DNA of 64,000 nucleotides from Branchiibius hedensis (lineage in GTDB: Bacteria > Actinomycetota > Actinomycetes > Actinomycetales > Dermatophilaceae): positions 1,612,001-1,676,000 of the forward strand of contig NZ_UESZ01000001.1 in NCBI RefSeq assembly GCF_900108585.1, given 5' to 3'. Under the pieces are notes generated by a model. It saw nothing but the letters and a program-made list of their open reading frames with translations, had not been told where the DNA came from and ran no database searches. The number at the start of each line of letters is the position of its first letter. Position 1 is the first letter of the stretch. This document shows, one piece after another, positions 23,146 through 41,395 of the stretch. Made by a program: the position numbers and the translations under genes.

Positions 23146-25023
23146 TCACTGCGTCTGGTCAGCGCGCCGGCGCAGATCGAAGAAGAGCAGACCCAGGCCG
23201 ATGACCGCGGCGGGAATCACCACCGCGGTCATCAGGCCGCCGATCAGATCCTCGATCCAGATCGGCCAGCCGGTCAGCAACAACAGTGCCCCGCCGATGA
23301 CCGGGCCCACCCCGGCGGCGGTGAGGACCAGCAACATCGCGACGATCGCTGACTTCACCGGTCGCGTGCGGACCAGTTGCGCGCTGCGCTTGAACGCGGC
23401 CCGCAGTGGCCGCTCCTCCACCGCCGCAGCGGCCATCGCCACCGACCACAGCGTGAGCATCACCAGTGCGAGCGGCGCGAGCCAGAAGGTGATGAACGCG
23501 GTCCCGACCAGCAGCACCGTCACCAGGAAGACGTAGACCGGTGTCCGGTGCTCGTTGACCTCGCGGGCGGCGGCCCGCACATCAGGCGTGTGACCGTCGC
23601 GCAGTTGCTCCAGCAGATCGAGAACGATGGCGGCACAGACCGCGTCGATGATCGCGACCAGCACCCATCCGATGCCAGCGATCACCCAGGTCCACCAGGC
23701 GTTCACCCCTGGATCCAGGTCGGTGATGGTGCCCTTCGGTCCGATGTGGATGGCCAGACGGGTCAGGGTCCGCACGATGTAGGTGCTCACGAAGAGCACC
23801 CCCGCGACCGGCAGCAGTTGCGCCGTCAACCGCCACGCGATCGCGAACATCGCCGCCAGGATCTGGCCGACGCTCCGCTCGCGGTCAACGGTCCCGGGTG
23901 CACTGCGCCGCCACTTGGTGCGCGCTGCCAACCAGATGGCCAGCGCCACAGCGGCCAGGATCAGGCCTCCGGTCAGCACGGGCTGGGCCAGGAGCTTCAG
24001 GAACAGCGTCGAGCCCTGGGACACCATCCCGCAGAAAGCGGTCGTCGCCATGGTCGGCACTTGCGGAAGGTCGACCGACGCCGGGCGACCTTCGTCGTCG
24101 ACCCAGGCGATCGGCGTACTCCATTGGGTCTTGGTCGCCGGACCGGTCGGTCCGTTGTTGAAGGTCGGTTGCTTCTCACCCCAGTGCCCGGTGAACGCCA
24201 GCCAGGCGAACGGATCGTTCGGGTCGGTCGGCACCGTGCTGGGAAGCAGGATCACCTGGGGACGGATCTGAGTGCCCGGGGCCGTGGTGTTGTCGCAACC
24301 GAACCCGGTCGCTGCGCCGCGGCCGAGCCAGTGCTCCTGGCTGTAGTACGACGCGTGCGAACCCTGGCCGGGGTAGACCACCGGATGGGTGCCATCGACC
24401 AGGCGCAGCTTGTCCTCACCCCAGTCGGCGACCTCGGAACCCTCATGCTGGGCGTACGCCGTCTGGACCGGCTCGGTGCGCAGCGCCGCCGCGACCGTTG
24501 GCACATCGAAGTCGACCTGGATCATCTCCCAGTCGCTCTCGTGCCGGTCGTTCCAGTCGTTGTAGACGTAGTAGAACCAGTACTGCACGACGACGTGGCC
24601 CTGGTCGGTGACCACGCGCGCGTAGATGCTCGGGCTGTGACCCTCGCGAATCTGGTCGTACCACTTCTCGTAACTGCACCCGGGCCGCAGTGCGTTACCG
24701 GGCAGATCGAGATAACTGTCCGGACCCGCCGTCGCCAGCTGACTGGCGGTCGGCGCGTCGATGGTGCCGTGTGGCGTGCGCAGGGTGACGTCCTGGCGGC
24801 CGAGCACCGCGTCCACCGAGATCGGCAGATACGGCTCGCCGTCGCCGCAGGGGGTGGTGTGCTTGCGGACGACCAACACCGGCGCGTAGCGGTCGGCGAG
24901 TTGTTGCGCCTGGCTGTCGGTCGTCGTACTCGCCTGGCTAGCGGCGGAGGCTGGAGCCCAGGTCGAAAGTACGGCGATCAGCAGCGCGAGCAGTACCCCG
25001 CTGAGCGCAGTGCGCTTGTTCAG
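23146..25023 (-). CDS. Exported Vps62/DUF946-like protein with C-terminal multi-pass membrane domain
   Basis: About 625 residues in two parts. After a signal-like segment (ALLIAVLSTWAPASA) comes an extracytoplasmic domain (~30-330) with YAPVLVVRKHT, YWFYYVYNDWNDRHESDWEM, and YPGQGSHASYYSQEHWLG, the signature of Vps62-related (DUF946) proteins. Residues ~350-620 hold about six hydrophobic segments, ending in a basic tail. The function is unknown. The start is a problem: no ATG, GTG or TTG lies close before the signal peptide. CTG at 25023, overlapping the upstream stop, is the simplest choice; initiation farther upstream in-frame cannot be excluded. Confidence 0.72.
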   Translation of the reverse strand: MNKRTALSGVLLALLIAVLSTWAPASAASQASTTTDSQAQQLADRYAPVLVVRKHTTPCGDGEPYLPISVDAVLGRQDVTLRTPHGTIDAPTASQLATAGPDSYLDLPGNALRPGCSYEKWYDQIREGHSPSIYARVVTDQGHVVVQYWFYYVYNDWNDRHESDWEMIQVDFDVPTVAAALRTEPVQTAYAQHEGSEVADWGEDKLRLVDGTHPVVYPGQGSHASYYSQEHWLGRGAATGFGCDNTTAPGTQIRPQVILLPSTVPTDPNDPFAWLAFTGHWGEKQPTFNNGPTGPATKTQWSTPIAWVDDEGRPASVDLPQVPTMATTAFCGMVSQGSTLFLKLLAQPVLTGGLILAAVALAIWLAARTKWRRSAPGTVDRERSVGQILAAMFAIAWRLTAQLLPVAGVLFVSTYIVRTLTRLAIHIGPKGTITDLDPGVNAWWTWVIAGIGWVLVAIIDAVCAAIVLDLLEQLRDGHTPDVRAAAREVNEHRTPVYVFLVTVLLVGTAFITFWLAPLALVMLTLWSVAMAAAAVEERPLRAAFKRSAQLVRTRPVKSAIVAMLLVLTAAGVGPVIGGALLLLTGWPIWIEDLIGGLMTAVVIPAAVIGLGLLFFDLRRRADQTQ

Positions 25024-25535
25024 GAGACGCGGTGCAGCCAGCGGACGGTCGCGCCGTCCCCGGCGTAGCGGAAGGGTTCGAGTTCCTGGTCCCAGGCCGT
25101 GCCCAGCAACTCGGCCACCTCGGCCCGGAACCGCTCGGGGTCCCCGCCACTGGCGATCACCACCGACCGCAACCGATCCTCGTTGACGACGGCGTCCCCG
25201 GAGGCGTTGGTCCAGGTGTGATGGATGCCGAGATCGGGCGTGCTGGCCCAGCGCGAACCATCGCATCCCGGTGTCGGCTCCTCGGTGACTTCGTAGCGCA
25301 CGCCCTCCCAGCCCCGCAGCGCAGTGGTCAGCCGCGCGCCCGTGCCGGGCTCGGCGGCCCAGGAGAACTCGGTGCGGACCGACCCGGGCGACACCGGTTG
25401 TTTGGTCCATTCCAGATGGACCGGCTGACCCAGGACGCTCTCCAAGGCCCAGCCGATATGCGGGCACAACGAAACCGGGGTGGAGTGGATGAACACCACA
25501 CCCCGAGCGACGGCGCGCGTGCGCGATGCCGACAT
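25020..25535 (-). CDS. DUF3145 family protein
   Basis: A 171-residue soluble protein of the actinobacteria-specific DUF3145 family: GVVFIHSTPVSLCPHIGWALE, LEWTKQPVSPGSVRTEFSW and RWASTPDLGIHHTWTNASGD. The function is unknown. The ATG at 25535 is preceded by GGAGGC on the minus strand. Its stop lies inside the start region of the Vps62-like gene, so the two may be cotranslated. Confidence 0.88.
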   Translation of the reverse strand: MSASRTRAVARGVVFIHSTPVSLCPHIGWALESVLGQPVHLEWTKQPVSPGSVRTEFSWAAEPGTGARLTTALRGWEGVRYEVTEEPTPGCDGSRWASTPDLGIHHTWTNASGDAVVNEDRLRSVVIASGGDPERFRAEVAELLGTAWDQELEPFRYAGDGATVRWLHRVS

Positions 25536-26474: not shown

Positions 26475-28451
26475 GTGCCACGCCCAGTATCCGCCAAGGA
26501 CACCTATCTACCCGGCCTCGACGGCATCCGCGCCATCGCGGTGGCTGCGGTGGTGCTCTACCACCTCAACGTCCCCGGACTGTCCGGCGGCCTGCTCGGG
26601 GTTGGCATCTTCTTCACCCTCAGCGGCTTCTTGATCACCACGATTCTGTTGCGCGCCTGGGCGCGCACCAATTCAGTGGGACTGGTCGGTTTCTACCTGC
26701 GCCGGGCAAGGCGCCTGTTCCCGGCGGTCGTCCTGGTGATTGCGGTCGTGATCGTGGCCACGCTCATTGCCGACCGGGACAACCTCGGCGCCACGGTCGG
26801 CAACGGCCTGGCCGGGCTGTTCTACGTGGCCAACTGGCACACGATCGCCGCGGGCGGAGACTACTTCGCGATCACCGCCGGTAACGGTGGCCCACTGGAT
26901 CACCTGTGGTCACTGTCCGTCGAGGAGCAGTTCTACTTCGTCTGGCCGTTGCTGCTGATCGGCATGATCGTGCTCTTCCGCGGCAACCTGCGCGTCGTGG
27001 CCGTCGCAACGGGTGTGTTGTCGGCGATCAGCTTCGTGCTGCTCTACAAATTCTCGATCCGGCCGGCTGATGTGATGCCCGCGTTGTGGAGCACCACGCG
27101 TGCCTACGAAGGCACCGACACCCGGGCCGGCGGCCTGCTCATCGGCGCCATCTTCGCCATCGTGCTCTTCGAACGACCCTTCCGGGCGACCCAGGGTGCC
27201 TGGAAGGTGCCGGTGGACATCCTGGGTCTGGCCAGCCTGGTCGGCTTGGGCTGGATCATCTACTTCAGCGGTTCGCACCCGCAATCCCTGTACTCCTGGG
27301 GCATCCTCGCGCAGTCGTTGCTGACCGCGATCCTGGTCATCAGCGCCATCCACCCCGGCTCGATGATCGTGCGCAACCTGCTCGGTGCGCAGCCGTTCCG
27401 GTGGATCGGCGAGCGCTCCTACGGCATCTACCTGTGGCACCTGCCGGTCATCTACTTCACCCCGCAGAGTTGGATCGACGCACATGCGGTGCTGGTGGGC
27501 ATCGGCCAGGTGGCCATCACGCTGATCCTGTCGGCCCTGAGTTGGACCCTGCTGGAGGACCCGATCCGGCGCAACGGTTTCCGCGCCGCGTTCAAACGGC
27601 CAGCCAACGCCGAGGGTCGTCGGCGCGCCGTGCCCGTCATCGTGTCCGGCTTCGCCGCCCTCGGCCTGGTCGCCAGTGTCGGGCTGGGCAGCGCTTCCGC
27701 ACTCGGCCGCGGCGCTGCGGTTGCGGACCCTGGGCCGGACAAACCGGGAGCGATCAACACCCCTCCCCCGACGAAGACCGGCAAACCGGTCAAGAACGGC
27801 ATCCCGGGCAAGACCTCATGCACGTCGGTTGCGCACATCGGTGACTCCACGTCGATCGGACTTGAGTCCCCTGCCTCGTTGCCGAATGCCGCCGACCGGA
27901 TCACGGCGCAATACAAGAAAGTCGGCGTCACCACGGTCAAGGAGGACATTTCCGGGGCCCGGGCCATCGTGGAGCACTGGAACAACCAGCCCAACGGTGA
28001 GGACGCGATCGAGAAGTTCCAGAAGAGCGGGTACAAGGGCTGCTACGTCATCGCCCTGGGCAACAACGACGTCGCGAACCTGTCCGTCGGCGCTGCGTAC
28101 TCTCTCGACCAGCGCATCGACATGGTCATGAAGCACACCAACAACCAACCGACCCTGTGGCTGACCAGCCGCACGTTGCGCACGGTCGGCCCCTACCGCG
28201 ACGAGGGCTTTCCCGCGTTGTCGACAGCGCTGCAGAACGCCTGCAAGCGGTGGCCGAACCTGCGCGTCTTCGACTGGCGCAGTGAGGTCCAGACCAGTTG
28301 GTACCTGCCCGACGACAAGATCCACTACACGACCAAGGGCTACCAGGAGCGGGCCAAGCGCATCGCCCTCGCCTTGGCGAACGCCTTCCCCAAGGACGGC
28401 AAACCAGCCTCAACCTGCCTGGTGTACTCGGGTTTGAAGGCCAACCAGTGA
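26475..28451 (+). CDS. OafA/YrhL-type acyltransferase fused to an SGNH domain
   Basis: A 658-residue protein. Residues ~10-370 form the Acyl_transf_3 membrane domain (YLPGLDGIRAIAVAAVVLYH with the catalytic-type histidine, FFTLSGFLITTILL, and SVEEQFYFVWP), about ten helices. After a Pro/Lys linker, residues ~455-658 form an SGNH hydrolase-like domain (CTSVAHIGDSTSIGL, ALGNNDVANL, and DKIHYTTKGY for the Asp/His pair). Such proteins O-acylate cell-wall or extracellular glycans. The GTG at 26475 follows AGGAG. It overlaps the next gene by 4 bp. Confidence 0.9.
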   Translation: MPRPVSAKDTYLPGLDGIRAIAVAAVVLYHLNVPGLSGGLLGVGIFFTLSGFLITTILLRAWARTNSVGLVGFYLRRARRLFPAVVLVIAVVIVATLIADRDNLGATVGNGLAGLFYVANWHTIAAGGDYFAITAGNGGPLDHLWSLSVEEQFYFVWPLLLIGMIVLFRGNLRVVAVATGVLSAISFVLLYKFSIRPADVMPALWSTTRAYEGTDTRAGGLLIGAIFAIVLFERPFRATQGAWKVPVDILGLASLVGLGWIIYFSGSHPQSLYSWGILAQSLLTAILVISAIHPGSMIVRNLLGAQPFRWIGERSYGIYLWHLPVIYFTPQSWIDAHAVLVGIGQVAITLILSALSWTLLEDPIRRNGFRAAFKRPANAEGRRRAVPVIVSGFAALGLVASVGLGSASALGRGAAVADPGPDKPGAINTPPPTKTGKPVKNGIPGKTSCTSVAHIGDSTSIGLESPASLPNAADRITAQYKKVGVTTVKEDISGARAIVEHWNNQPNGEDAIEKFQKSGYKGCYVIALGNNDVANLSVGAAYSLDQRIDMVMKHTNNQPTLWLTSRTLRTVGPYRDEGFPALSTALQNACKRWPNLRVFDWRSEVQTSWYLPDDKIHYTTKGYQERAKRIALALANAFPKDGKPASTCLVYSGLKANQ

Positions 28452-29416
28452 ACACGGCGGTTACCCGGAAAGGCGTGACTCGGCGTACGTCGATGGTCGG
28501 CTCTGGTGCCGTCCTCGCCGTGGCGGCCCTGGGACTGAGCGCCTGTGGCGGCGGGACGTCGGCGGCACCATCGTCAACGTCGACGACGTCCACTACATCG
28601 TCTGCTCGGTCCTCATCAGTCTCGTCGTCGGCATCGTCATCGTCGGTCTCGTCGCCTTCGGCGACCAGCACCTCGAGCACGCCGTCGTCTACGACCTCCG
28701 CCACGGCGTCAGGGTCGCCGTCGGCTTCCTCGACCGCGACGGGGACAGCCAGCACCGCCGCCGTGCCGTATCCGCAGACGTCGTGCACCTCGGTGGTGCA
28801 CATCGGGGATTCGACCTCGGACGGCCTGGTCGCATCCGGCGGATTCCTGAAGAATCCGGCGTGGGACGTCGATGCGCAGTACAAGGATGTCGGAGTCAAG
28901 AACGTCACGACCGACATCTCCGGTGCCCGGGCAATCATCGAGCACTGGAACAACCAGCCGAACTCCCTGGATGCGATCGAGAAGTTCGAGAAGCAGGGTT
29001 ACCAGGGCTGTTACGTGCTGGCGATCGGCAACAACGACCTGGCCAATATGAGTGTCGGCGGCGCCGGCCCGATGTCCATGCGAATCGACCTGATGATGCA
29101 ACACGCCGGGTCGAATCCGGTGATGTGGCTGACCAGTCGCACGCTGCGCACCTCGGGTCCGTACACCGATGCCAACTTCCCGGCCCTGTCGAGCGCGCTG
29201 ATCGCGGCCTGCCAGAAGTACCCGAACCTGCGGGTCTTCGACTGGCGCAGCGAGGTGCAGACCAGCTGGTACCAGCCGGCGGACAAGATCCACTACACCA
29301 GCCACGGCTATCGGGAGCGCGCTGAGCGGATCGCGCGTGCCTTGGCCAACGCTTTCCCGGCGTCCGGTGCCACGTCCTCGTGCGTGATCCACTCCGGGCT
29401 GAGCGCGAGCCAGTAG
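28448..29416 (+). CDS. SGNH-domain lipoprotein, paralogue of the upstream SGNH domain
   Basis: A 322-residue predicted lipoprotein: signal segment AVLAVAALGLSAC with lipobox LSAC, then a ~75-residue Ser/Thr linker, then an SGNH domain with CTSVVHIGDSTSDGL, AIGNNDLANM and DKIHYTSHGY. The domain is clearly paralogous to the C-terminal half of the preceding acyltransferase (shared EHWNNQPN, MWLTSRTLRT, RVFDWRSEVQTSWY). The GTG at 28448 overlaps the upstream stop. It probably acts outside the membrane with its neighbour on the same acylated polymer; the polymer is unknown. Confidence 0.88.
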   Translation: MNTAVTRKGVTRRTSMVGSGAVLAVAALGLSACGGGTSAAPSSTSTTSTTSSARSSSVSSSASSSSVSSPSATSTSSTPSSTTSATASGSPSASSTATGTASTAAVPYPQTSCTSVVHIGDSTSDGLVASGGFLKNPAWDVDAQYKDVGVKNVTTDISGARAIIEHWNNQPNSLDAIEKFEKQGYQGCYVLAIGNNDLANMSVGGAGPMSMRIDLMMQHAGSNPVMWLTSRTLRTSGPYTDANFPALSSALIAACQKYPNLRVFDWRSEVQTSWYQPADKIHYTSHGYRERAERIARALANAFPASGATSSCVIHSGLSASQ

Positions 29417-29421
29417 CCGCC

Positions 29422-29820
29422 GTGGCCCGCTTGGTTCGCCGCGCTGCGGTCGGCGATACCGGTGTGGTCCTGGAGGTCGATGGTTCGGGGAACTATCGCC
29501 TCGGCTTTCCCAACGACCTGACGACGAGCGCCGATGAGTCGTGGTGCGATCCGCCGGAGGAACTGTTCTCCTACGAACTTGTCCTGCGCCCAGACCACTA
29601 CGTTGCAGTGGGTTTCAGCCAGAGCACTGTGACTGTGGACGTGAGGGTGGCTGGGGCGACGTCCTGGACTCCGGCGCACCCGGTGCAGATCGGCGCTGTA
29701 TGGGCTTGCCCCAGACCCGCGGGAGCCGTCACGCTCAGAATTCGTAACCGTGTCGATGAGATACGTGAGCACCGACCCGACCGGCGTCGCGGGCCAGGCC
29801 TAGCGGCCAGTTCTACTTGA
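29422..29820 (+). CDS. Hypothetical protein, unrecognised
   Basis: A 132-residue ORF starting at GTG 29422, 5 bp after the SGNH lipoprotein gene. It looks protein-like: GDTGVVLEVDGSGNYRLGF, ELVLRPDHYVAVGFSQSTV, a beta-rich pattern and no transmembrane segment. I do not recognise a family. Its last codons and TGA fall in the first bases of the 3'-end repeat at 29806, so the native C-terminus may have been altered by the insertion there. The opposite-strand ORF of similar length looks less like a protein. Confidence 0.5.
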   Translation: MARLVRRAAVGDTGVVLEVDGSGNYRLGFPNDLTTSADESWCDPPEELFSYELVLRPDHYVAVGFSQSTVTVDVRVAGATSWTPAHPVQIGAVWACPRPAGAVTLRIRNRVDEIREHRPDRRRGPGLAASST

Positions 29821-29949
29821 AGAACTCACTGATTGTGTCGGGCACTCCAGACGCGAAAAGGACGACGCCGAAACCGACGATCAGCAGCGCGGCGAGCGCT
29901 CCGAGCAGGACCATCAGACTCTTGGCTACCTGGTGGACTCGCGGTCCGG
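29806..29949 (-). pseudogene. Displaced 3'-end copy of the small membrane-protein gene
   Basis: About 140 bp nearly identical (about 93%) to 31267-31410, the 3' end of the gene at 31274-31618. It encodes the same last 40 residues (LMVLLGALAALLIVGFG, ending PDTISEFFK) without a start. Most of the ten substitutions are synonymous, so the two copies diverged while both coded for protein. This looks like the old end of a gene displaced by an insertion. Confidence 0.8.
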
Positions 29950-29984
29950 AAGGCGTCCGAGCGATTGTCCGGTGCTGTGATTCT

Positions 29985-31187
29985 TCAGTGCATCTCGTCG
30001 CCCGGACTCCGCCACAGGTCGATGATCGCGTCGTGCAACCGGCGGTCGTTGGCCGGTAGGCCGTCGAGGACTTCGGCGAGGGAGACCGACGTCTGGCGGA
30101 TTTCATAGCGGCTGGCCCGCGTGATGAACACCCGAGAGTAGTCAGGATCCTCGACCACTCGCTTCCATGACGCCGAGTCCTTCTCGTTGGCGAACCAGGC
30201 GGACGGTCCGAACTTCAGCTGCAGCGGGGCCTCGCTGTTTCCCTCGCCCTCACTGTCAACATCGAAGTTGATAGTCCACTGGTAGCTATACCGGTAGTTC
30301 GCGGAGACTCCGCGGACGAAGTCGTCGCCGAACGTTTCGTTCAGAGCAGGACCCAGCACTTGCTCGCTGTAACTCCTCAGTTTGTTCTTCACTCGCTGTA
30401 GAACTTCTCGGCCTTCGCCGAAGCGTTCGATGGCCTGGTCTCGGATAGCGTCGCCGAACTCCTCAGCTGCTGCTTGCTGTGCCTGCCGCGCATATCGGCC
30501 TGCGGCTCCCGTTGCACACATAGCGGTCATGAACTCCAGAAGTTGGCGGTCTTCCACGCGTCCTCTGCCCTTTACGAATCGTCGGTACATCTGGTCGATA
30601 AAGGAATAGGCGTCGGGATGGTCGCGCTGGTAGCCATGGTTGGTCGACAGAGTCCGATGCAGTTCCGTCACGACGGCGCCGTAGGTGACCACGTGGGCGT
30701 TCTCCCAACCATCGCTCTGCAGAGAGCTGTCCTGGTCCCGGCAGAGCAGGACCACCGCGCCACGCTTGCCGTCCCTCTCCGCGTGCGCCAGGTAGCCGGC
30801 GTAGCTGTGGCCGTGACCATCGGAGGTGTAGTAGTTCTCGATCACGACGCGTTCGGTGTCGTTCTCCAGAACGATGTCGGCGATGTCCCAGGGGTTGCCG
30901 TCATCGGCCGTGTTGAGCTCCTGGACGACGATCTCGAACGTCTTCCGAAACTGCCGTGCACCCGGAAGCCCGCGGTTGATCTCCGAGAGGAAAATCTGCT
31001 GGGGCAGGTTCTTCAGACCGTGCGTTGCCTTCAGGTCAGGATTCAGCAACCAGGCGAACACGTTGGAGAGCTGCTTCTCGTGGCTGCCGTGGCGCATCAC
31101 GTCGAAGACGTTGAAGCCGATTTGCATTGATCGCCCGAGAAGCGGCAATAGTTCGGTGACCATGTCCTTGCCCGACGAGGTACCCAC
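29985..31187 (-). CDS. PD-(D/E)XK nuclease superfamily-like protein (candidate defence gene)
   Basis: A 400-residue protein resembling the PDDEXK_4-type family. N-terminal signature EKQLSNVFAWLLNPD with THGLK; core strand pair DIADIVLENDTERVVIENYY followed by TSDGHGHSYAGYLAH. The usual catalytic Lys of the IENK motif is Tyr here, so the active site may be altered. The C-terminal half (~220-400) is not recognised. The start is GTG 31187. Base composition is visibly less GC-rich than neighbours, and the gene lies alone between two copies of another gene's 3' end, both signs of transfer. A role in phage defence is inference from family and context. Confidence 0.65.
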   Translation of the reverse strand: MGTSSGKDMVTELLPLLGRSMQIGFNVFDVMRHGSHEKQLSNVFAWLLNPDLKATHGLKNLPQQIFLSEINRGLPGARQFRKTFEIVVQELNTADDGNPWDIADIVLENDTERVVIENYYTSDGHGHSYAGYLAHAERDGKRGAVVLLCRDQDSSLQSDGWENAHVVTYGAVVTELHRTLSTNHGYQRDHPDAYSFIDQMYRRFVKGRGRVEDRQLLEFMTAMCATGAAGRYARQAQQAAAEEFGDAIRDQAIERFGEGREVLQRVKNKLRSYSEQVLGPALNETFGDDFVRGVSANYRYSYQWTINFDVDSEGEGNSEAPLQLKFGPSAWFANEKDSASWKRVVEDPDYSRVFITRASRYEIRQTSVSLAEVLDGLPANDRRLHDAIIDLWRSPGDEMH

Positions 31188-31266
31188 AGCATCAAACTAG
31201 CGCCTCTGTCGCGATCGTCAGGAGACTGCCGCTGCCGACATCCGATCCCAGGAGACGGCGTCGGTG

Positions 31267-31410
31267 GCCGGCTCTACTTGAAGAACTCACTGATCGTGTC
31301 GGGCACCCCGGACGCGAACAGGACGACGCCAAAACCGACGATCAGCAGCGCGGCAAGCGCCCCGAGCAGAACCATCAGACCCTTGCCTACCTGGTGGACT
31401 CGCGGTCCGG
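31267..31410 (-). repeat. 3'-end copy inside the intact membrane-protein gene
   Basis: Partner of the repeat at 29806-29949, direct orientation, offset 1461 bp. Here it forms the functional 3' end of the intact gene. Together the two copies bracket the nuclease-like gene. Confidence 0.85.
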
Positions 31411-31618
31411 CGATGGGCTCGTAGAGGGACAGATCAACGTCTTGAGTCGCTGGCGCCGGAGTCCTCGCTGTCGTGCTCGGAATAGCCAACGAGTTCGTCT
31501 GCACCACGAGGGCGTGGGACGGGTCGGCCACCGCATCGGGCAGAGCCCGCTGGGGTAACGCGCCGTGTCCGCGGGCGGCCGCGTCGGCCGCGCCTGCCAA
31601 CCCCTTAGAGATGTCCAT
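31274..31618 (-). CDS. Small single-pass membrane protein, unrecognised
   Basis: A 114-residue protein starting at ATG 31618. The N-terminal ~75 residues are soluble and low in complexity (Ala/Pro/Thr). The C-terminus has one clear hydrophobic helix (LMVLLGALAALLIVGFGVVLF) and a short polar tail ending SEFFK. No family recognised. Its start is 52 bp from the first tRNA-derived att copy, and its 3' end is duplicated at 29806, so it seems to have served as an insertion site. Confidence 0.65.
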   Translation of the reverse strand: MDISKGLAGAADAAARGHGALPQRALPDAVADPSHALVVQTNSLAIPSTTARTPAPATQDVDLSLYEPIAGPRVHQVGKGLMVLLGALAALLIVGFGVVLFASGVPDTISEFFK

Positions 31619-31669
31619 GCCTGAGAGTCTCAGACACTTGAGGACCGGGGCAAGCATCGAAGGTGAGTA

Positions 31670-31709
31670 GGGCGGCTGGGGCTTGAACCCAGGACCGACG
31701 GATTATGAG
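31670..31709. repeat. att copy A (tRNA 3'-end fragment)
   Basis: 40 bp identical to 36093-36132 and to 41324-41363, the latter inside the complete tRNA gene. It covers the tRNA from the anticodon loop to one base short of the acceptor end (minus strand). It is the distal attachment-site copy of island 1. Confidence 0.92.
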
Positions 31710-31895
31710 CCGGGGCTGCCCCTGAGTCGCCACTGTTTCCGTTTGCGCCCCCTCGCACCGGGGAGCGCCGAAACTGTCTGCTGCACAATGGATTCCGGCT
31801 CGCCTCGACGCGCGCCGAATCGCCGGGGCGTGGCAGTTCTGGAGGGGATTTCGCGGGGTCTTCTCCACACCGGCCCGCGCTGGCAGACTCTTGGG

Positions 31896-32336
31896 ATGAG
31901 CACAGAGGTCTGGGCACTGGTCGGTGTGATTGTTGGTGCGATCCTTGGCGGGTTCGCACAGATTGCCGCTGGCACCCTCTCCGACCGCCGCGCGCATCAG
32001 GGATGGGTGCGGGACCAGCGATTGGGCGCCTACCAAAACTTCTTGACTCGCACAGACGGTCTGCTGTGGACACTCAACAACGCGAACTTCCGCGAAGAGC
32101 CTGAGCCACACCCGAATGACGAGTTCTTCGACGGCGGACTAACTCCGTTCAGTGCGCCCATCGAGATGTTCGGCGACAGGAAAGTCATCGATGCAGTCGA
32201 CGCTGTCCGCAGCAAAGCGCACGCCTTCGCCGAGCGCCACGTGGGCATGGATGACCTCAGCGCGCAGATTCGCGATCTTGAGACCGCCCGCGACGCATAC
32301 GTGCGTGCCATCCGCAAAGACCTTGCAGTCGAGTAG
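31896..32336 (+). CDS. Small membrane-anchored protein, unrecognised
   Basis: A 146-residue protein from ATG 31896. One N-terminal hydrophobic helix (WALVGVIVGAILGGFAQIAA) is followed by a soluble, helical, charged region (residues ~28-146), including RDQRLGAYQNFLTRTDGLLW and a C-terminal amphipathic helix (LSAQIRDLETARDAYVRAI). The upstream in-frame frame is read through from the att region and was excluded. Similar one-helix cargo proteins occur in actinobacterial islands; function unknown. Confidence 0.65.
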   Translation: MSTEVWALVGVIVGAILGGFAQIAAGTLSDRRAHQGWVRDQRLGAYQNFLTRTDGLLWTLNNANFREEPEPHPNDEFFDGGLTPFSAPIEMFGDRKVIDAVDAVRSKAHAFAERHVGMDDLSAQIRDLETARDAYVRAIRKDLAVE

Positions 32337-32669
32337 TCCCACCCAACTCACTCCCCCAAGCCTGACCCGCTCACCGACCAGCCGCGCGCTGACCCTCCGA
32401 TCACGCCTACGCGATCCTCGCCAGAGTTCCAGGCCGGTCTGGGCAACGGCACTGAGACGCGTTCAAACGCCCGGGAAAACCCCATACGCGTGTTTGGGAG
32501 GGTGAGTTGCCATGTCCAGCAACACGATTCGGCGTCGCGGGGCGCACGGCGAAAGTTCTTGGCGCACCGGGGCGCACGCTGGCGTAGAGTTCTTGTCAGC
32601 GACCAACCGGGGGCCTGTACGGTCCCCACTAACGAACCGACCAGACGCGCCGAGGAGGTGACCGGACCG
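32337..32669. other. Intergenic stretch, no gene seen
   Basis: 333 bp in island 1 with no credible coding frame on either strand. The end has GAGGAGG (32652-32658) upstream of ATG 32670, and a possible weak promoter around 32595-32630 (TTCTTG ... TACGGT). Confidence 0.5.
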
Positions 32670-33019
32670 ATGCAGACTCTTACCCGTCGCAACTCGCACG
32701 TGCGCACCTTGGACGAGCGGGCTGGCGGCCCGCAACGCCTGGGGCGCAGCGCGGTTGACCCGCTGGCCGGCAGCAGACCTACCGCACGCTGAACGTGCTG
32801 GGTACGGCTGACTTGCTCGCTGAGCACCGCCGGGCGGTCGCCGTGCTAAACGCGGCCGATCCCGCCACTCACCTCGCTGCCGTGGCTGCGTTGACGGCTG
32901 TCACCGTGGCCGCCGCTGAGTCGGCCCCCGCTGCCGAACCTTTGATCACTGCATCCCGCGCCCCGCGCGATCCGAACGCCCGCGTCGCAATCGTCGCGGG
33001 GCGTGAGGTCGTCAGCTAG
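32670..33019 (+). pseudogene. Probable frameshifted small island gene
   Basis: ATG 32670 after GAGGAGG opens a frame (MQTLTRRNSHVRTLDER) that stops at 32792. The +1 frame then continues in protein-like sequence from about 32765 (RQQTYRTLNVLGTADLLAEH ... to VAIVAGREVVS, stop 33019). Read across one frameshift it would be about 115 residues, mostly helical. Alternatively 32795-33019 (GTG start, 74 residues) is a separate small gene. No family recognised. A stem-loop with a T-run follows. Confidence 0.4.
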
Positions 33020-33037
33020 CATCCGGTTAGCTCCCTC

Positions 33038-33066
33038 GCCCGTCGCTGAGCGCGGCGGGCTGTTTT
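33038..33066 (+). terminator. Rho-independent terminator
   Basis: GCCCGTCGC (33038-33046) pairs with GCGGCGGGC (33052-33060), one T-G wobble, 5 nt loop TGAGC, followed by TGTTTT. It ends the transcript of the small gene before the integrase remnant. Confidence 0.75.
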
Positions 33067-33763
33067 GGCCCTGCCCGCTAGCGCGACCTGGCCAGGACAC
33101 CCCGCACGCCGGATTCCTCACCTGCGGTGTACGCGCAGCATGTGTTGCCGGCGTTCGGCGGGCGACGCGTGAACGCGCTCACCACCGAGGACGGCGACAA
33201 ATGGGTATATGCATTGCGAAGCTCGGGCCTCGCCGACGCGACCGTGCGCAACGTGTTCGTCGCGTTGCACAAGGCGATTTAGATGGCCGTTCGTCGCAAG
33301 TGGATAGCGGTGAGCCCGTGCGCCAGGGCGCCGGCGGGACGCGCTGCCGTCGCCCAGCGCCGCCGGGGCGCAGCGGTTTGAGCCGCGCTTCTTGACGGTG
33401 GTCGAGGTGGAGCGGGTGGCGGCTGAGTTGGCCGACGCTCCCCCAGCGGCGTTGATGGTGCGGTTTGCGAGCTTCACGGGGTTGCGCGCTGGGGAGATGA
33501 CAGGGTTGCAGATCCGAGACGTCAACTTGTTCAAGCGCACCGTCTCGGTGGAGCGGACAGTGCAGCGGATTCGGGGCGAGTGGGTCACTGGCACCCCGAA
33601 GTCGCTGCGGTCGCGGCGGACCGTCCCGATTCTGCATCCGGGGCTGCTAGACGACCTGGCGGCGTTCCTGGCGGAGCACCCCGCCCGCACCGACCCCGCC
33701 GCGCGGTTGTGGCCCGGCCGCGAACCCGGCACGCACCCGCGTGGACTACACCCGGCAATGGGA

Positions 33764-34753
33764 CTAGGTGTAGTGCCCCGCCAGGTTGGGTACGCGGTCT
33801 GCGGGTGAGCCACCTTTGAGCGCGGTGTGTGCGCGGTGGTGATTGTAGATGTGCAGGAAGTCCTCGTACGCGGCGGCGCGTTCGGTCTCGCTGGTGTAGG
33901 GGCGGGCGTAGGCCCACTCCTCGGTCAGGGTCCGGTTGAACCGCTCGACTTTCCCGTTGGTTTTCGGGGTGTAGGGGCGGGTGCGTTTATGGGTGATCCC
34001 ATGGTCCTGCAGCATGTTCCGGAATAGGTGGGAGCGGTAACAGGACCCGTTGTCGGTCATCACCCGGTCCGTGGTGATCCCGACCTGCGCGAAGTGCGCC
34101 ACCGCCCGTTGCATGAACGCGGTCGCGGTCTCCTTCTTCTCATCGGCCAGGATCTCTGAGTAGGCGTACCGGGAGTGGTCATCGACCGCGTGGTGCAGGT
34201 AGGCATACCCCCGCCCACTGCTGGAGGTAGCACGGGAGTTAGCTTTCCCCGCAGCGCGGCCATGGACCCGGTGTCCACCCCCATCGGGGATGCGGCCCAG
34301 CTTCTTGATGTCCACGTGGACCAAATCACCCGGGGCGTCGCGTTCGTAGCGCACCACCTTTCGACGACCGGCCCGTACCGGGGCACCAGTGGCCGGGTCC
34401 GTCCAGGACAACCGAAGACACCGGTACCGGGTCAGGATGCGGTGCACCGTGGCCGGATTCATCCCCAGGTGGTAGGCGATCCGGGCCGGCCCCCACCGCC
34501 GCGAAACCCGTAACCCCAGGACTCGCCGTTCCCGGCGCCTACTGGTGCGGTGCGGACATGACTGGGGCCGGCTGGGACGATCGCACATCCCCGCCGCACC
34601 ATGCTGGCGGTACCGGGCCGCCCAGCGGTGCGCGGTGGTGACCGAGACCCCGAACCGGTCTGCGGCCCGCCGCAACGGCCACCCATCGTCCACCACGCAC
34701 CGCGCCAGGCGCAGGCGACCAGTCGCAGAAAGCGGGGCATTAGCGTGGACCAT
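33764..34753 (-). CDS. IS481-family transposase
   Basis: A 329-residue DDE transposase. N-terminal HTH (RRAADRFGVSVTTAHRWAAR), then an rve catalytic core: Asp in DLVHVDIKKLGRI, Asp in TDRVMTDNGSCYRS, Glu in KTNGKVERFNRTL. The frame is intact. The stop TAG at 33764-33766 lies outside the IS proper, inside the target duplication (CTAGG), so termination is supplied by the insertion site. Confidence 0.93.
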   Translation of the reverse strand: MVHANAPLSATGRLRLARCVVDDGWPLRRAADRFGVSVTTAHRWAARYRQHGAAGMCDRPSRPQSCPHRTSRRRERRVLGLRVSRRWGPARIAYHLGMNPATVHRILTRYRCLRLSWTDPATGAPVRAGRRKVVRYERDAPGDLVHVDIKKLGRIPDGGGHRVHGRAAGKANSRATSSSGRGYAYLHHAVDDHSRYAYSEILADEKKETATAFMQRAVAHFAQVGITTDRVMTDNGSCYRSHLFRNMLQDHGITHKRTRPYTPKTNGKVERFNRTLTEEWAYARPYTSETERAAAYEDFLHIYNHHRAHTALKGGSPADRVPNLAGHYT

Positions 34754-34868
34754 GAGGACCTCCGGGTTTGGGGATGTGTTTGCTTCGTCGCTTCACACCT
34801 CACCCGGAGGTCTTCCTCAAGTCACGCCGACAGGCCGAGAACCGTTCCTAACGTCCCGGGGCAGTACA
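33769..34868 (-). mobile_element. IS481-family insertion sequence
   Basis: An 1100 bp element. The ends are imperfect inverted repeats beginning TGTAGTGCCCCG (left) and TGTACTGCCCCG (right, read inward), with about 20 of 29 positions matching. It is flanked by a 6 bp direct repeat ACTAGG (33763-33768 and 34869-34874), the target duplication. It encodes one DDE transposase and interrupts the island 1 integrase. Confidence 0.92.
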
Positions 34869-35181
34869 ACTAGGGCAGCTTCAACCGCAACTACTTCCGG
34901 CCTGCGGTGGAGCGGGCGGGGCTGGGCGCGGTGCGCTGGCACGACCTACGGCATTCAGCGTGTTCGGGGTGGCTCGCAGCGGGCATCGAGCCCTACAAGG
35001 TGAGTCGGTGGATGGGCCACGCCAATCTCGCCACCACAGACAGCACCTACTCGCACCTGTACCCCGCCGACTACTCCGACGAGGCCGCGCAGTACGGCGC
35101 GCTCGTGGCGGGGTCAGCCCCGGCGACACCCGCTACTTCGTTGCGCCCGCTCACCGCCCAGGGCTGACGGGCCGAGCGCCC

Positions 35182-35862
35182 TCAGGCTCCCCGGCGCCAC
35201 CCGTTCGGGCCATAGTGGCGAGCCTCGGGATGGTCACGAGGTAACTCGTTGTGCTGACCGAGCTTGGCGCGGGCTGTCTCGTTCGCCTCCCACTCGTACA
35301 GACGGCTGCGGATCGACGCTAACGCCGAGAAGTCCAGGCACTTGTCTGCCCGTACCCCGCAGCTACAGTCACGGTCGTCGGAGTTCTCGGGCGTGTGGTG
35401 GTTCTGGTCGATGTACCAGAGCACCCGCAACAACACCGCGATGAATCGGTGAGCTTTTTCCTTCTGCTCGCGCTCGGCGGCGATGGCCACCTGGTCCAGC
35501 CAAACCGCCACCACCGGATTGACCTGCTTGAAACCGTCTTTGACCGCCGCTTCCATCGCGGATGCGCGCAGACGTTCGGCGTTAAGCTCTTGGGTTAACG
35601 CCTCCACCTTGGCGGCGTGCCTGGCGTCCAGGTTCTCAACGACGTCGGTGCGTTCCTGCCTTAGCTGGTCCAGGTACTCCGCCCACCAGTTCTTGTGCTG
35701 TTGGTCGCGGCGGAGGACGCGGGCGGTCTGGTCGCCTTGGTGGCGGAGGCACAAGTCGCACACCACCTGATCGGTCGTGGACTTGAAGATGAACTCTCGC
35801 GGCAGGCCGCAGCAGCGGCAATCGGTGGTGACGGGTCGGTGGAGGGTTTCGATATCGGCCAC
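35182..35862 (-). CDS. Cys-rich/coiled-coil protein of island 1, unrecognised
   Basis: A 226-residue soluble protein. Residues ~13-45 carry CRCCG and CDLC pairs, a likely zinc ribbon. Residues ~60-125 are charged and heptad-like (LDARHAAKVEALTQELNAERL). The C-terminus has another CSC motif and an Arg-rich tail. It starts at GTG 35862 with GGAGG upstream and ends 15 bp from the integrase remnant, convergent with it. It may be a DNA-binding or structural cargo protein; no family is recognised. Confidence 0.6.
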   Translation of the reverse strand: MADIETLHRPVTTDCRCCGLPREFIFKSTTDQVVCDLCLRHQGDQTARVLRRDQQHKNWWAEYLDQLRQERTDVVENLDARHAAKVEALTQELNAERLRASAMEAAVKDGFKQVNPVVAVWLDQVAIAAEREQKEKAHRFIAVLLRVLWYIDQNHHTPENSDDRDCSCGVRADKCLDFSALASIRSRLYEWEANETARAKLGQHNELPRDHPEARHYGPNGWRRGA

Positions 35863-36092
35863 GGCGGGCCTCCTTGAGCAACGGCGGCCACCCGGACAGA
35901 CGTCCGAGCTAACTACACCAATGTAGTCCGGAGCTCCGACAGACCGCAGAAGTTATCCACAGTCGCGCACATCGCCGCAGGTAAGCACGGGAACGGGTGG
36001 CGGGGTTTTGACGGGGATTTCGCCTCAGAGGACTGTCGGAGACCTTCGCGAGACAGGCTCCAAGCCCTGCTCTACCTGCGCAAACACCCGTG

Positions 36093-36132
36093 GGGCGGCT
36101 GGGGCTTGAACCCAGGACCGACGGATTATGAG
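36093..36132. repeat. att copy B (tRNA 3'-end fragment), junction of the two islands
   Basis: The 40 bp core is identical to copies A and C. With copy C the identity extends to 51 bp (36084-36134 versus 41315-41365), meaning islands 1 and 2 share the same right-end flank. Confidence 0.92.
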
Positions 36133-36246
36133 TCGCTTCGAAGGCATCCTGACCTGTCGCGGTGGGTGCTGAATTGCCCGGAGTGGTGCGGTCGGAGTCC
36201 TCCCCCGTCCCGTCCCGTCCCGTAGCGGCCTGTGCGTGGGCGTTGC

Positions 36247-36264
36247 GTAGCAAGCCGTTAGCAA
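36247..36264. repeat. Paired GT(T)AGCAA repeats, left end of island 2
   Basis: GTAGCAA (36247-36253) and GTTAGCAA (36257-36264), a 10-11 bp step, about 115 bp inside att copy B. A matching pair sits at 41241-41258. They are candidate arm-type binding sites for the missing integrase. Confidence 0.5.
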
Positions 36265-36390
36265 ACCGGCAACACGACGACTGCCTGTTGTCGGTGCACG
36301 CACCTAGCGTCACCACCACCCCAACAAAATGCGACCCCGACCGGTAGCCGCCGATCGAGGGTCCATGACCAGCCACAGGAGGGCTGGATC

Positions 36391-36612
36391 ATGAGCACAA
36401 CCGTACCCACCGCCTCGAGCAGGCGGACCATGCACAACCTCGACCACCTGGTCGAAGACATCCAGTGGCTGTTAGCCGCCGGCGAGAGCCGAGAGATGAT
36501 CGTGGCCCGGCTCGGCTACACCACCCAAGCCAGCCTCGCTCGCGTGCTACGCCGCGCCGGCAAGCACGACCTGGCGCGTCCCTTCGAGCGCACGCTGGGG
36601 GTGGCGCGATGA
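36391..36612 (+). CDS. Small helix-turn-helix-like protein
   Basis: A 73-residue protein with a perfect AGGAGG site ahead of ATG 36391. Residues ~18-60 (LVEDIQWLLAAGESREMIVARLGYTTQASLARVLRRAGK) look like a helix-turn-helix with a sigma/phage-regulator style. It overlaps the next gene by 4 bp. It heads a plus-strand unit of small genes at the left end of island 2 and may regulate it. Confidence 0.65.
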   Translation: MSTTVPTASSRRTMHNLDHLVEDIQWLLAAGESREMIVARLGYTTQASLARVLRRAGKHDLARPFERTLGVAR

Positions 36613-36950
36613 GCCGCTACCAAGGCACCGTCGGTGAACCCCGGGTGATCCCCTGCCCGTCCTGGTGTGTGTACCAGGACCCGAGCGACGAGGCATGCCA
36701 CAGCACCGAACGCCGGGTGCCGGCGACGCGCTACCACCGTGACCGCTACGGCGACGACGACTGGGCTGACGCCTACTTCACCACCTACGCCACCTTCTCC
36801 CGCCTCGGACCGAGGCACCATCTCGTGCACCTCGGGCTCGGTGAAGCGACCGGATTCGAGTTGACCGCCGATGAGGCACGCCAGCTCGCTGAGGCGCTGA
36901 TCCTCGCCGCTGCGGACCTCGAGGCCGCGACGGGCGGTGAGCAGGCATGA
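36609..36950 (+). CDS. Small Cys-containing protein (DUF6907-like)
   Basis: A 113-residue protein with CPSWC near residue 16 followed by a later Cys/His (ACHSTERR) and a C-terminal helical segment (LTADEARQLAEALILAAADLE). The CPxWC ... LxxDEARQLAxAL pattern is typical of DUF6907-type proteins frequent on actinobacterial plasmids and islands; function unknown. It overlaps both neighbours by 4 bp. Confidence 0.65.
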   Translation: MSRYQGTVGEPRVIPCPSWCVYQDPSDEACHSTERRVPATRYHRDRYGDDDWADAYFTTYATFSRLGPRHHLVHLGLGEATGFELTADEARQLAEALILAAADLEAATGGEQA

Positions 36951-37615
36951 GGGACACACCCGCACAGATCGCCGCACGTCCAGCACCGTGCTGCCCGCCC
37001 GGGTGCATCTCGACCGACCACGACGAGGAACGGGCTAGCGGTAGCGATAGTTGGTACTTCCACCGAGCCATCACCGGCCAGGGCAGCAACCAGAGCGGCG
37101 ATGAGTGGTTGGTTGAGGTGCAGATCTGCGAACCATTCGACGACAACGAACTGCCCGACCCGGCAACGGTGTTCATTCAAATCCCGGGCGCGGAGACCCT
37201 CCACCCGGGCGTGGCGGCCGCTATCGGCGAAACGATCACCTCGGCCAGTGCTCTGGCCCGCGAGTGGTCCGGGCTCTGGCTCGGCGTGCCGCCCGTGGCG
37301 CCGGAGGATGTGGTCTGCCCGGACTGGTGCCGCTACAACGGGGCGTGGCACTTCGAACAGCTCAACGAGTTCGACGGGCATTGCATCCACCTCGGAGAGG
37401 TCGCCGGAGCGCACCTGGCGCTCACGACCTGGCCCGACGGTTCACCCACGCAGGACGCGCCCACGGTCACGCTCGACGACAGTCTGCAGCAGGTGACCGC
37501 TGGTGAAGCGGTCGCCACCGCTGCGGCCCTGCTGGCCGGCGTCGCAGCTCTGAACGACATGGGGGGGTCACCCGATGAGCACATCTGCCGCGTGCCACCG
37601 ATTCCCGTGCGATAG
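36947..37615 (+). CDS. Two-domain Cys-containing protein (DUF6907-like)
   Basis: A 222-residue protein with two copies of the same small domain. The first has CCPPGC and ISTDHDEE near residues 15-27; the second has VVCPDWCRYNGAWHFEQL near residue 123, and ends in a helix (QQVTAGEAVATAAALLAGV). ATG 36947 overlaps the previous stop (ATGA). It probably arose by duplication of the neighbour. Possibly zinc-binding; role unknown. Confidence 0.65.
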   Translation: MRDTPAQIAARPAPCCPPGCISTDHDEERASGSDSWYFHRAITGQGSNQSGDEWLVEVQICEPFDDNELPDPATVFIQIPGAETLHPGVAAAIGETITSASALAREWSGLWLGVPPVAPEDVVCPDWCRYNGAWHFEQLNEFDGHCIHLGEVAGAHLALTTWPDGSPTQDAPTVTLDDSLQQVTAGEAVATAAALLAGVAALNDMGGSPDEHICRVPPIPVR

Positions 37616-37900
37616 CGCCTACCGCCGTATCAATCACGACGGTTAGGGCACTACGTTGGCTGGAAATCGGAGCGGGACTACTCGCAGGAAGGCGACCCAT
37701 TGCTGTGGGCGGTCGGAGCCGTTGCTTTCGACGACAACGGCGACTGGCAGGTTCAGCTGCGCATCGCGGACGAGATCGCTTATCTCGACAACGATCAGGT
37801 GATCCGGATGATCCAGGGTCTGCTACACGCGAACAACACGTTTCATGAGACGCGCCTTCAAGACGTCGCCCTGCGTCGACCTGCGTCGACCTGCGGATGA
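37575..37900 (+). pseudogene. Frameshifted island gene
   Basis: ATG 37575 opens STSAACHRFPCDSAYRRINHDG and stops at the TAG after 37640. The neighbouring frame continues without a start as GHYVGWKSERDYSQEGDPLL and VAFDDNGDWQVQLRIADEIA to 37900. Together they look like one ~110-residue protein broken by a single-base change. A 10 bp tandem repeat (CTGCGTCGAC twice, 37871-37890) lies at its end. Confidence 0.5.
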
Positions 37901-37911
37901 GGGTGGCCCAA

Positions 37912-38100
37912 ATGACTGACCCGCTTCTGACGGTCCAAGACGTCGCAGAACAGTTGAGGTGTTCCCCGAAGACCGTGCGCATCATGTTCGCCCGCGGCGA
38001 AATCCGAGCATCCTCCACCAGGGTCGGATGGCGCACTACCCAGACCGACCTCGACGCCTACCTCAATTCCACCAGCAACCGACCCCGGAGGAACAAATGA
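37912..38100 (+). CDS. Excisionase-like MerR-type helix-turn-helix protein
   Basis: A 62-residue DNA-binding protein: LLTVQDVAEQLRCSPKTVRIMFARGEIRAS followed by a wing and WRTTQTDLDAYL, the HTH_17/excisionase pattern. In related elements this gene lies next to int and directs excision. Here no intact int follows. ATG 37912 was preferred to ATG 37897 as the family normally begins just before LLTVQDVAE. It overlaps the next ORF by 4 bp. Confidence 0.8.
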   Translation: MTDPLLTVQDVAEQLRCSPKTVRIMFARGEIRASSTRVGWRTTQTDLDAYLNSTSNRPRRNK

Positions 38101-38270
38101 CCACGCGCAAGGGCACCCCGGCCAAGAAGACCGAGGACGAAGTGATCCGGGAAGCAGCCAAGGCAACCGCCGACCGGATCCTGCGCGAACGCGGCCCGCT
38201 ACCGGACTCCCTGATCAACGACATCAAGAAGGCCACCGCACGACGGCGCATAGAGGACCGTGGACGCTGA
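38097..38270 (+). CDS. Very small basic protein downstream of the Xis-like gene
   Basis: A 57-residue lysine/arginine-rich helical protein (MTTRKGTPAKKTEDEVIREA ... ATARRRIEDRGR). ATG 38097 overlaps the xis-like stop (ATGA) after a GGAGGAA site. In intact elements a small gene often sits between xis and int. Function unknown. Confidence 0.55.
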   Translation: MTTRKGTPAKKTEDEVIREAAKATADRILRERGPLPDSLINDIKKATARRRIEDRGR

Positions 38271-38374
38271 TCGTCAGATCGCCTTGGCTCGACGCCGCCA
38301 CAGGTCGGCGTCGGGCCAAGGCATGGTCACGGATGCAGCATGCCACCAGACGGTAGGTTGCAGCACCGACAGAC

Positions 38375-38797
38375 TCAGGCGGGTGTCGCAATTCGCGATG
38401 TGAACTCAGATGCGCCGACAGCCGCCAGGCCTTCGGCGACCTCCCATGCATGCTCTTCGCCCTCGTAAAGGCGCATCAGTCCGAAGAAGTCCCCTACGGT
38501 GGTCCCCGGATCCAACACGGACGCCTCTGCCGCCTCTACACCGCTGTGATGCACGATTATGCGCGCCTCGATCGCACCCTTGTCGATCATGATCACTGCA
38601 CATGTGACGCCCTCGTGGGCCTGCAGCGCGTGCTTGATGGCCAGCGCGGGTTGATCGCTGTCGAACCCAAAAGCCAAGCACTGACCGCCATCGTTCAAGG
38701 AGGAAACCTGGTTCAACCAGTTGACAAAACTCTCATCGGCTAGCAGCGATGTCACAACCCAGGACCGAGGGCGCTTATCCATTGCTGCTCCTTCCAT
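38375..38797 (-). CDS. Hypothetical protein of island 2, unrecognised
   Basis: A 140-residue soluble protein (or 135 residues from ATG 38782, MDKRPRSWVVTSLLADES). It has a mixed alpha/beta pattern with GGQCLAFGFDSDQPALAIKH, AVIMIDKGAIEARIIVHHSG and a C-terminal acidic region. No family recognised. The start overlaps the end of the next minus-strand gene by 31-46 bp, so the two are probably expressed together; the pair has toxin/antitoxin-like sizes, but nothing in sequence proves that. Confidence 0.55.
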   Translation of the reverse strand: MEGAAMDKRPRSWVVTSLLADESFVNWLNQVSSLNDGGQCLAFGFDSDQPALAIKHALQAHEGVTCAVIMIDKGAIEARIIVHHSGVEAAEASVLDPGTTVGDFFGLMRLYEGEEHAWEVAEGLAAVGASEFTSRIATPA

Positions 38798-39171
38798 GCG
38801 ATGAGTATCTCTGGCGGCGTCGCAACTGCATTTACGACACCTTGGTACACCAGCGGGATCTGTCGAGGCGTTGCCTTGATGCCAGTGTCCCAGATGTCGT
38901 CAAGCTCCACCCCATCTTCATGCGGGTGCACATGCACCGTACCTCCATGAAATGGGGATGTGCAGATGCGGAGCTGCTTGATGTCGCGGCGCTTGCCGCC
39001 TGGCATTGCGAAGTAGAGGAGAAAGTTGAAGTCCACAATGGAACCGCGACAGAGCCGCGTCCGCTGCTGCCAGTAGTACTCATAAGGCCCGATGCGATCG
39101 GTTGGCGGCGTCGTCGGTTCAATGCACCGATCACACTTGTAGTGAAACTGGCGCATGAATGCATCTGCCAC
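38752..39171 (-). CDS. Hypothetical protein of island 2, unrecognised
   Basis: A 139-residue protein starting at GTG 39171, which directly follows a TAA in the same frame. Notable features are CDRC near residue 13, an aromatic segment (IGPYEYYWQQRTRL), a beta-rich core (GSIVDFNFLLYFAMPG, RICTSPFHGGTVHVHPHEDG) with a His cluster, and a C-terminal helix with AWKEQQW. The His/Cys content suggests metal binding. It overlaps the downstream gene. Confidence 0.55.
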   Translation of the reverse strand: MADAFMRQFHYKCDRCIEPTTPPTDRIGPYEYYWQQRTRLCRGSIVDFNFLLYFAMPGGKRRDIKQLRICTSPFHGGTVHVHPHEDGVELDDIWDTGIKATPRQIPLVYQGVVNAVATPPEILIAWKEQQWISALGPGL

Positions 39172-41258: not shown

Positions 41259-41321
41259 GATCGGCCGACGCCACACACTGGCGTGGACGGCTCGACCGCC
41301 TCTGACCTGCACACACACCCG

Positions 41322-41395
41322 TGGGGCGGCTGGGGCTTGAACCCAGGACCGACGGATTATGAGTCCGCTGCTCTAACCGGCTGAGCTACCGCCCC
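41322..41395 (-). tRNA. tRNA with CAT anticodon (elongator Met or Ile2); insertion site of the islands
   Basis: Complete cloverleaf on the minus strand: acceptor GGGGCGG pairs perfectly with CCGCCCC, D-arm GCTC/GAGC, anticodon stem GCGGA/TCCGT with loop CTCATAA (anticodon CAT), T-arm CTGGG/CCCAG with loop TTCAAGC, discriminator A. Methionine elongator and lysidine-modified isoleucine tRNAs share this anticodon and I cannot separate them by eye. Its 3' half is the att core for the islands, and it has stayed intact. Confidence 0.93.
41324..41363. repeat. att copy C, inside the tRNA gene
   Basis: The 40 bp core shared with 31670-31709 and 36093-36132; right boundary of island 2. Confidence 0.92.

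Follow-up and report, generated by a model that had tools for sequence, protein, structure and literature searches.

A putative single-gene cassette without its own recombinase at the 3' end of a small protein gene of Branchiibius hedensis, and arrays of ychF 3'-end copies in Actinomycetales

We detected a direct repeat of the 3' end of a small membrane-protein gene, here called X, on both sides of a single PD-(D/E)XK-type gene in the window, the whole 64,000-nucleotide stretch of the Branchiibius hedensis genome that was analyzed. We suggest, at about even chances of being right, that the PD-(D/E)XK-type gene is the cargo of a recombinase-free cassette inserted in the X 3' end by site-specific recombination. 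Such a cassette would be about 1.46 kb long and would consist of a replacement X 3' end, 86 bp, the nuclease gene, 35 bp, and an attachment core, with the recombination enzyme supplied in trans or lost since. X would have retained its full reading frame because the cassette brought a near-synonymous 3' end, and the cargo gene, which is parallel to X, could be read from X. In favor of insertion are the repeat spanning the X 3' end, the single-gene insert of low G+C, and the location of some cargo-gene relatives at attachment-site settings; against it are the 145-bp repeat, longer than the ychF-type sites described below, the weak core palindrome, and the position of X in a tRNA-Met hotspot.

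Gene X (31274..31618, minus strand, ORF list) encodes a small protein of 114 aa, counted from the Met at 31618, with one C-terminal hydrophobic segment. An alternative upstream start at 31657 is possible, and no Pfam family was matched above its cut-off. The direct repeat (29805-29949 and 31266-31410) is 145 bp long with 91.7% identity and 12 mismatches. It contains the last 44 codons of X and the stop codon (44 residues; 45 codons common to both copies, minus strand), slightly more than the 40 residues of the original prediction. The homology between the copies ends 8 bp beyond the X stop codon. The longest identical stretch, 24 bp, is at the gene-proximal edge of the repeat (31387..31410, minus strand, containing GGACTCGCGGTCC; second copy at 29926..29949, minus strand), and the remaining differences are scattered along its length. 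We infer that this identical run is the crossover core, and the crossover was probably within it. The X-attached copy (31266..31410, minus strand) would then be the putative attL, where X ends in the element's replacement 3' end, and the detached distal copy (29805..29949, minus strand) the putative attR, the displaced original X end that would now lie beyond the nuclease gene.

The same repeat could have served homologous, RecA-type integration of a circle or foreign fragment carrying the nuclease gene and a diverged X end. The 145-bp length and the 92% identity are compatible with this and a special recombinase would presumably be unnecessary, but the differences are spread along the repeat and its longest stretch of identity is confined to an edge, and we consider this explanation quite unlikely.

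Ten of the 12 mismatches are inside the 45 common X codons, eight of them synonymous and two not (Ala/Gly and Ser/Gly), in agreement with the ten mostly synonymous differences predicted. Third codon positions account for eight of the ten (binomial P=0.003). Substitutions simulated without constraint resulted in a mean of 3.2 synonymous changes versus the 8 observed (P=0.0017) and, because of this synonymous bias, both copies probably served as the end of a working gene for most of their separation. The suggested divergence as coding sequence is thus supported, but the suggested divergence in different genomes is indistinguishable from that of paralogues in one genome. The bias also led us to reject a long target-site duplication from a transposon since gone: such copies begin identical and one stays functional, so eight synonymous changes out of ten are not expected, and the insert shows no transposase-like ORF. 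A precedent is available in the same genome, where a DDE transposase gene is located between 137-bp direct repeats of 99% identity (L161:4-1958, G000 C1 at about 2.98 Mb), possibly an unusually long target duplication; for X this origin is very improbable.

The insert between the copies (29950-31265, 1,316 bp) has a G+C content of 61%, versus 67% for the window, and contains a single long plausible gene, which agrees with the predicted 1.3-kb insert with only a PD-(D/E)XK-like gene. The gene (29985..31187, minus strand, 400 aa) has the orientation of X, starts 86 bp after the X stop codon and ends 35 bp before the distal copy. The expectation that a recombinase would be absent is borne out to the extent that the tyrosine recombinase profile PF00589 had no match within the insert. 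No transposase-like ORF was seen between 29950 and 31265 in the ORF list, the nearest one outside being at 33764-34753. A promoter and terminator scan gave no signal exceeding shuffles. The only repeat arms in the window copies are GGAC/GTCC and the core palindrome is weak; elsewhere in the same genome the X core has one further exact 15-mer and two one-mismatch sites.

The cargo protein matched PF14281 (PDDEXK_4) with E 2.2e-7 and 31.5 bits (curated cut-off 22.3), and its best match among the PADLOC profiles was PDC-S26, a candidate defence family, with E 3e-12. A pattern search of genome contigs gave 61 matches, and 48 of these encode relatives of the cargo gene with 38-54% identity, 46 actinobacterial and two from Verrucomicrobia MAGs. 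The gene is present in 8/186 family genomes, the window's own included, whereas searches of plasmids, phages and viral contigs did not detect it; the insert DNA had no match in plasmids. The PD-(D/E)XK catalytic residues are D...(D/E)-x-K. In the alignment of the window's sequence and 46 others (n=47), D101, D104, E117 and N118 are invariant, and the lysine expected at position 119 is replaced by Tyr in 35 sequences and by Phe in 12 (47/47 non-Lys), so that D104 and E117 are retained and the catalytic motif is incomplete. K38 is Lys in 46/47 sequences and might stand in for the lost lysine. The window gene matches both profiles but forms its own clade, with E-N-Y/F replacing E-x-K. The AlphaFold2 model of the protein (mean pLDDT 81, pTM 0.58) gave 384 weak Foldseek matches, none at E<=0.001. 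The best ones (E 0.06-0.2) include Bax1, Can2, EndoMS/NucS and MspJI, none of them strong enough to be named as a relative; several of the top matches are presumably PD-(D/E)XK enzymes and others are not. The predicted nuclease activity is plausible, and the PF14281 and PDC-S26 profile matches suggest a candidate role in anti-phage defence.

A search for X in other actinobacteria, as was proposed with the original prediction, covered 57 relatives, the 186 family genomes and plasmids and gave no convincing homologue; therefore no insert-free site is available for comparison. The best matches in family genomes outside its own had E 2.1e-4 and 8.7e-4 with 31-37% identity, and 60/185 other family genomes had a match at E<=0.05. 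These weak matches were taken as chance; many are located inside far longer frames. Six exact peptide words, which detect near relatives only, found no X in viral contigs or GTDB-220 genome contigs, and the X DNA had no match in phages.

The neighbourhood of X is shaped by a tRNA-Met gene. The intact gene (41321..41395, minus strand, ARAGORN) is the target of neighbouring insertions, a second copy of its 3' part is located at 36070..36137 (minus strand, 94% to 41300-41369), and a further 3' fragment (31667..31712, minus strand, matching 41321-41367) adjoins X at the end of an older tRNA-Met insertion array. Window positions 31667-41395 thus hold two tandem tRNA-Met insertions upstream of X, with three copies of the tRNA 3' part. 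The integrase nearest to the insert belongs to this neighbouring tRNA-Met unit; it is a tyrosine integrase (33389..35062, plus strand, PF00589) split in two pieces, 33389-33559 (22.5 bits, below cut-off) and 34886-35062 (35.9 bits, above), with an IS481-type transposase gene between them (33764-34753, minus strand; rve, LZ_Tnp_IS481).

The DUF3145 gene of the window (25020-25535, PF11343) has counterparts within 1.5 kb of tRNA-Met in 8 of the 29 other loci fetched. In three of them (L104, L108 and L109) it is 150-390 bp downstream of tRNA-Met in the same direction, as in the window, and in five it is on the other side of tRNA-Met. In the window about 16 kb, X included, separates the two genes, so the stretch is variable and may have received paralogous cargo by nested insertion. 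The ORFs of 22 of the 29 tRNA-Met loci (L102 being without downstream sequence) included no X-like gene. Two neighbouring stretches (27906-28390 and 28874-29358) are 74% alike and carry ORFs with weak SGNH/GDSL-type matches below the Pfam cut-off, one of them fused to an acyltransferase.

This setting is relevant to a truncated paralogue, which we regard as a real though somewhat unlikely explanation: two X genes, in tandem or on successive tRNA-Met islands, would have been followed by acquisition of the nuclease gene and by a deletion that removed the 5' part of the second X. Both X genes under coding selection would also diverge synonymously, the tRNA-Met-to-DUF3145 region is variable cargo, and apparently paralogous ORFs are found in tandem at another locus of the genome (L154), as are the two SGNH-type copies (74%) in the window. 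It requires, however, a duplication and also a deletion so placed that a single compact gene remained precisely between the copies, its stop codon only 35 bp from the distal repeat, and other islands yielded no X homologue.

The chance of close repeats was surveyed in 464 kb of the same genome, consisting of the window and 20 spaced 20-kb stretches, a close direct repeat being defined as at least 50 bp, at least 80% identity and less than 6 kb apart. Six were detected, namely the X repeat, a tRNA-Met repeat and four at other places. Of these four, one surrounds the transposase gene at L161, two are in the tandem, apparently paralogous ORFs at L154, and one is at L155. Close repeats alone are therefore unremarkable; a coding 3' end that is repeated and shows a synonymous bias is a more specific feature.

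Relatives of the cargo gene were found in other settings, and a similar layout is in Salinibacterium (L041:7510-11241), where the homologue is alone between copies of the ychF 3' end as the second of two cassettes. This locus is an instance of a defence-type gene between 3'-end copies, for which the original prediction had proposed looking. The 3' end of ychF (YchF-GTPase_C) is at 7539. Two downstream copies, at 9692-9726 and 11207-11241, include exact matches to 29 and 27 bp of it and are 97% alike over 35 bp. The first interval contains two ORFs without a Pfam family. The nuclease gene stops 27 bp before the next repeat, and the gap before it is 97 bp if its longest frame is taken, or about 235 bp if the start aligned with that of the window gene is taken. 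A local search with three integrases found no integrase at this locus.

Other relatives are associated with different elements. In L055:8123-12023 a tmRNA is followed by 85-bp repeats bracketing a frameshifted tyrosine integrase and the nuclease gene, and in L050 tRNA-Met 3' copies delimit a 12.4-kb unit that includes the homologue. Tyrosine recombinases 88% alike are located near the nuclease gene in two genera (L033:9805-12216 and L047:7770-8681), and the flanking repeat of L033 is a duplication of the first bases of the recombinase gene before the nuclease. At L069 a 4-kb insert contains the homologue. On one side of this insert is a complete gene for a GntR/FCD regulator and on the other a truncated copy that retains about 95 codons of the regulator gene's 3' part, the two having 23 synonymous versus 16 non-synonymous codon differences. 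DDE transposase genes are on both sides at L019 and form its flanking repeats, with a SIR2-like gene beside the nuclease; L065 has near-identical flanking repeats of 1.4 kb, and L025 and L064 have flanking repeats as well. One mechanism for all cargo loci was rejected, since the repeats are DDE transposase genes at L019 and the start of a recombinase gene at L033. Against travel of the gene in such cassettes, most of the 52 loci compared had no flanking repeat exceeding the cross-locus null. For the enrichment test, 36/48 loci had sufficiently long flanks, and the enrichment around the cargo family was modest: 5/36 cargo loci versus 2/79 control positions at 39 bits (P=0.03) and 3/36 versus 1/79 at 60 bits (P=0.09).

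The ychF 3'-end pattern, with up to two mismatches, was run on 396 genomes of the order and matched in 296 of them; a reversed control pattern gave one match, in G511. At least two same-strand copies were detected in 46/396 genomes and opposite-strand copies only in six (P=5e-9); same-strand copies are not always neighbours, and among the matches listed those of G419 are on two contigs and those of G266 are 26 kb apart. Twenty stretches were fetched, of which 17 contain ychF with downstream copies and three without ychF (L082, L089 and L093) were set aside. The resulting 18 arrays (L041, L075-L081, L083-L088, L090-L092 and L094) contain 39 additional copies, and their 39 intervals range from 612 to 10,696 bp with a median of 1,674 bp, the long ones possibly concealing missed sites. 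The arrays appear to be concentrated in some families.

The ychF-type sites are 24-48 bp long and their copies retain a 24-bp core, although this conservation is partly a selection effect because the copies were found by likeness to ychF. In many cassette copies CGGAAC is found at the core start, and its inverted counterpart GTTCCG is 8 bp away. The arms match at 5 or 6 of 6 positions in 21/39 copies versus 0/18 ychF ends (P=3e-5). A stricter arm pattern (up to one mismatch) matched in 5/296 class-sample genomes, once each, and in 0/27 order genomes of that sample, including G236, which has three copies by the looser pattern; the arms are therefore not universal. The short repeats of L041 and the arrays favor site-specific recombination there, which counts further against the RecA-type integration considered above.

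No tyrosine or serine recombinase match (PF00589, PF00239) was found inside any of the 17 arrays searched, positions being compared by eye. In the genome G292, where three copies are present, PF00589 matches a total of two genes, which by length look like XerC and XerD, and PF00239 matches none. Cargo was scanned in 77 of 135 ORFs, picked by eye, which matched 87 Pfam families. Among the matches listed (25 families) are alpha/beta hydrolases (5), HTH_3 (4), MarR (4), GNAT (3), PIN (2), glyoxalase (2), Cass2 (2) and Abi_2 (1), Cass2 being described in Pfam as 'integron-associated effector binding protein'. Array ORFs also match PADLOC profiles, AbiD and AbiTii among them, and toxin-antitoxin (TA) genes are present as well. 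Related cassettes were found in the arrays of different genera and at differing positions. No exact match for a phage attP of the ychF site was detected, and a looser pattern matched one viral contig, in a ychF gene itself.

Integron cassettes are compact units with the recombination site just after the stop codon. The ychF arrays are similar to integrons in their integron-type cargo and in that inverted arms occur at cassette sites and are missing from the primary site; they differ in having no PF00589 match (17/17), a conserved site sequence and the ychF end as the primary site. The integron-like ychF arrays are the most novel lead of this analysis. They suggest that some Actinomycetales keep a store of cassettes in the chromosome much as integrons do, and a concrete search for its recombinase is now possible. 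A literature search for ychF as an insertion site gave nothing on 3'-end arrays, which is no proof of absence in print; a Streptococcus pneumoniae satellite prophage is reported to integrate intergenically upstream of ychF and not at its 3' end (PMC10383233).

The window insert is not part of the ychF system because the target, the repeat length (145 vs 24-48 bp) and the core differ. It also differs from integrons, since X shows one cassette only and PF00589 has no match in the insert. The link between the window insert and the ychF system is the cargo gene and the layout, one target-oriented gene whose stop codon precedes the next repeat by 35 bp in the window and by 27 bp in L041. A wider actinobacterial mode, where recombinase-free cassettes of one or a few genes enter the 3' ends of protein genes by a frame-restoring site and an enzyme acting in trans, with ychF as the main address, its integron-like arrays carrying defence, toxin-antitoxin and detoxification genes, and X as a second one, is unlikely on the present data but can be formulated. 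If recombinase-free single-gene cassettes are real, they would explain lone defence genes that sit, with the frame preserved, at protein-coding addresses.

The insertion carrying a replacement 3' end, as originally proposed, matches the layout of e14 in icd of E. coli, where 163 bp of the 3' end are duplicated, the reading frame is completed by sequence from the element and a pseudo-copy is left behind (PMC6379469). The window insert is like e14 in the mostly synonymous copies (8/10, P=0.0017) and the geometry of a replacement 3' end, and differs in having one 1.2-kb gene and no recombinase match in the insert, versus a 15-kb prophage with its own integrase. CIMEs lack integration and transfer genes, retain attL and attR, and accrete at one target (PMC5704250). 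The window insert is similar in having one gene and no PF00589 match, and its 145-bp coding repeat with a 24-bp identical edge may correspond to attL and attR. It is different in its target, X; a CIME proper derives from an ICE or IME. SGI1 is reported to insert at the 3' end of trmE (PMC8409611), and, among SCC-type elements, a mecA region bounded by orfX is reported to be without recombinase genes (PMC3637587); the window insert would share with these the insertion at the end of a protein gene, the genes and size are different, and the likeness is one of layout. From a composite transposon or IS the insert differs by the absence of a transposase-like ORF. By analogy, the insert would function as an e14-type replacement of a 3' end and resembles a CIME, but we do not file it with either, because the truncated paralogue is a real alternative and the attachment sites are putative. 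The claim of a new type of cassette is partly upheld by the single-gene cassette of L041 and is overstated in view of the integrase-less CIMEs and the insertions at gene 3' ends already known.

Two further repeats were observed in the window, a distant 67-bp repeat of 88% identity (2141-2207 and 63369-63434) and an overlapping tandem repeat of about 100 bp (54561-54751).
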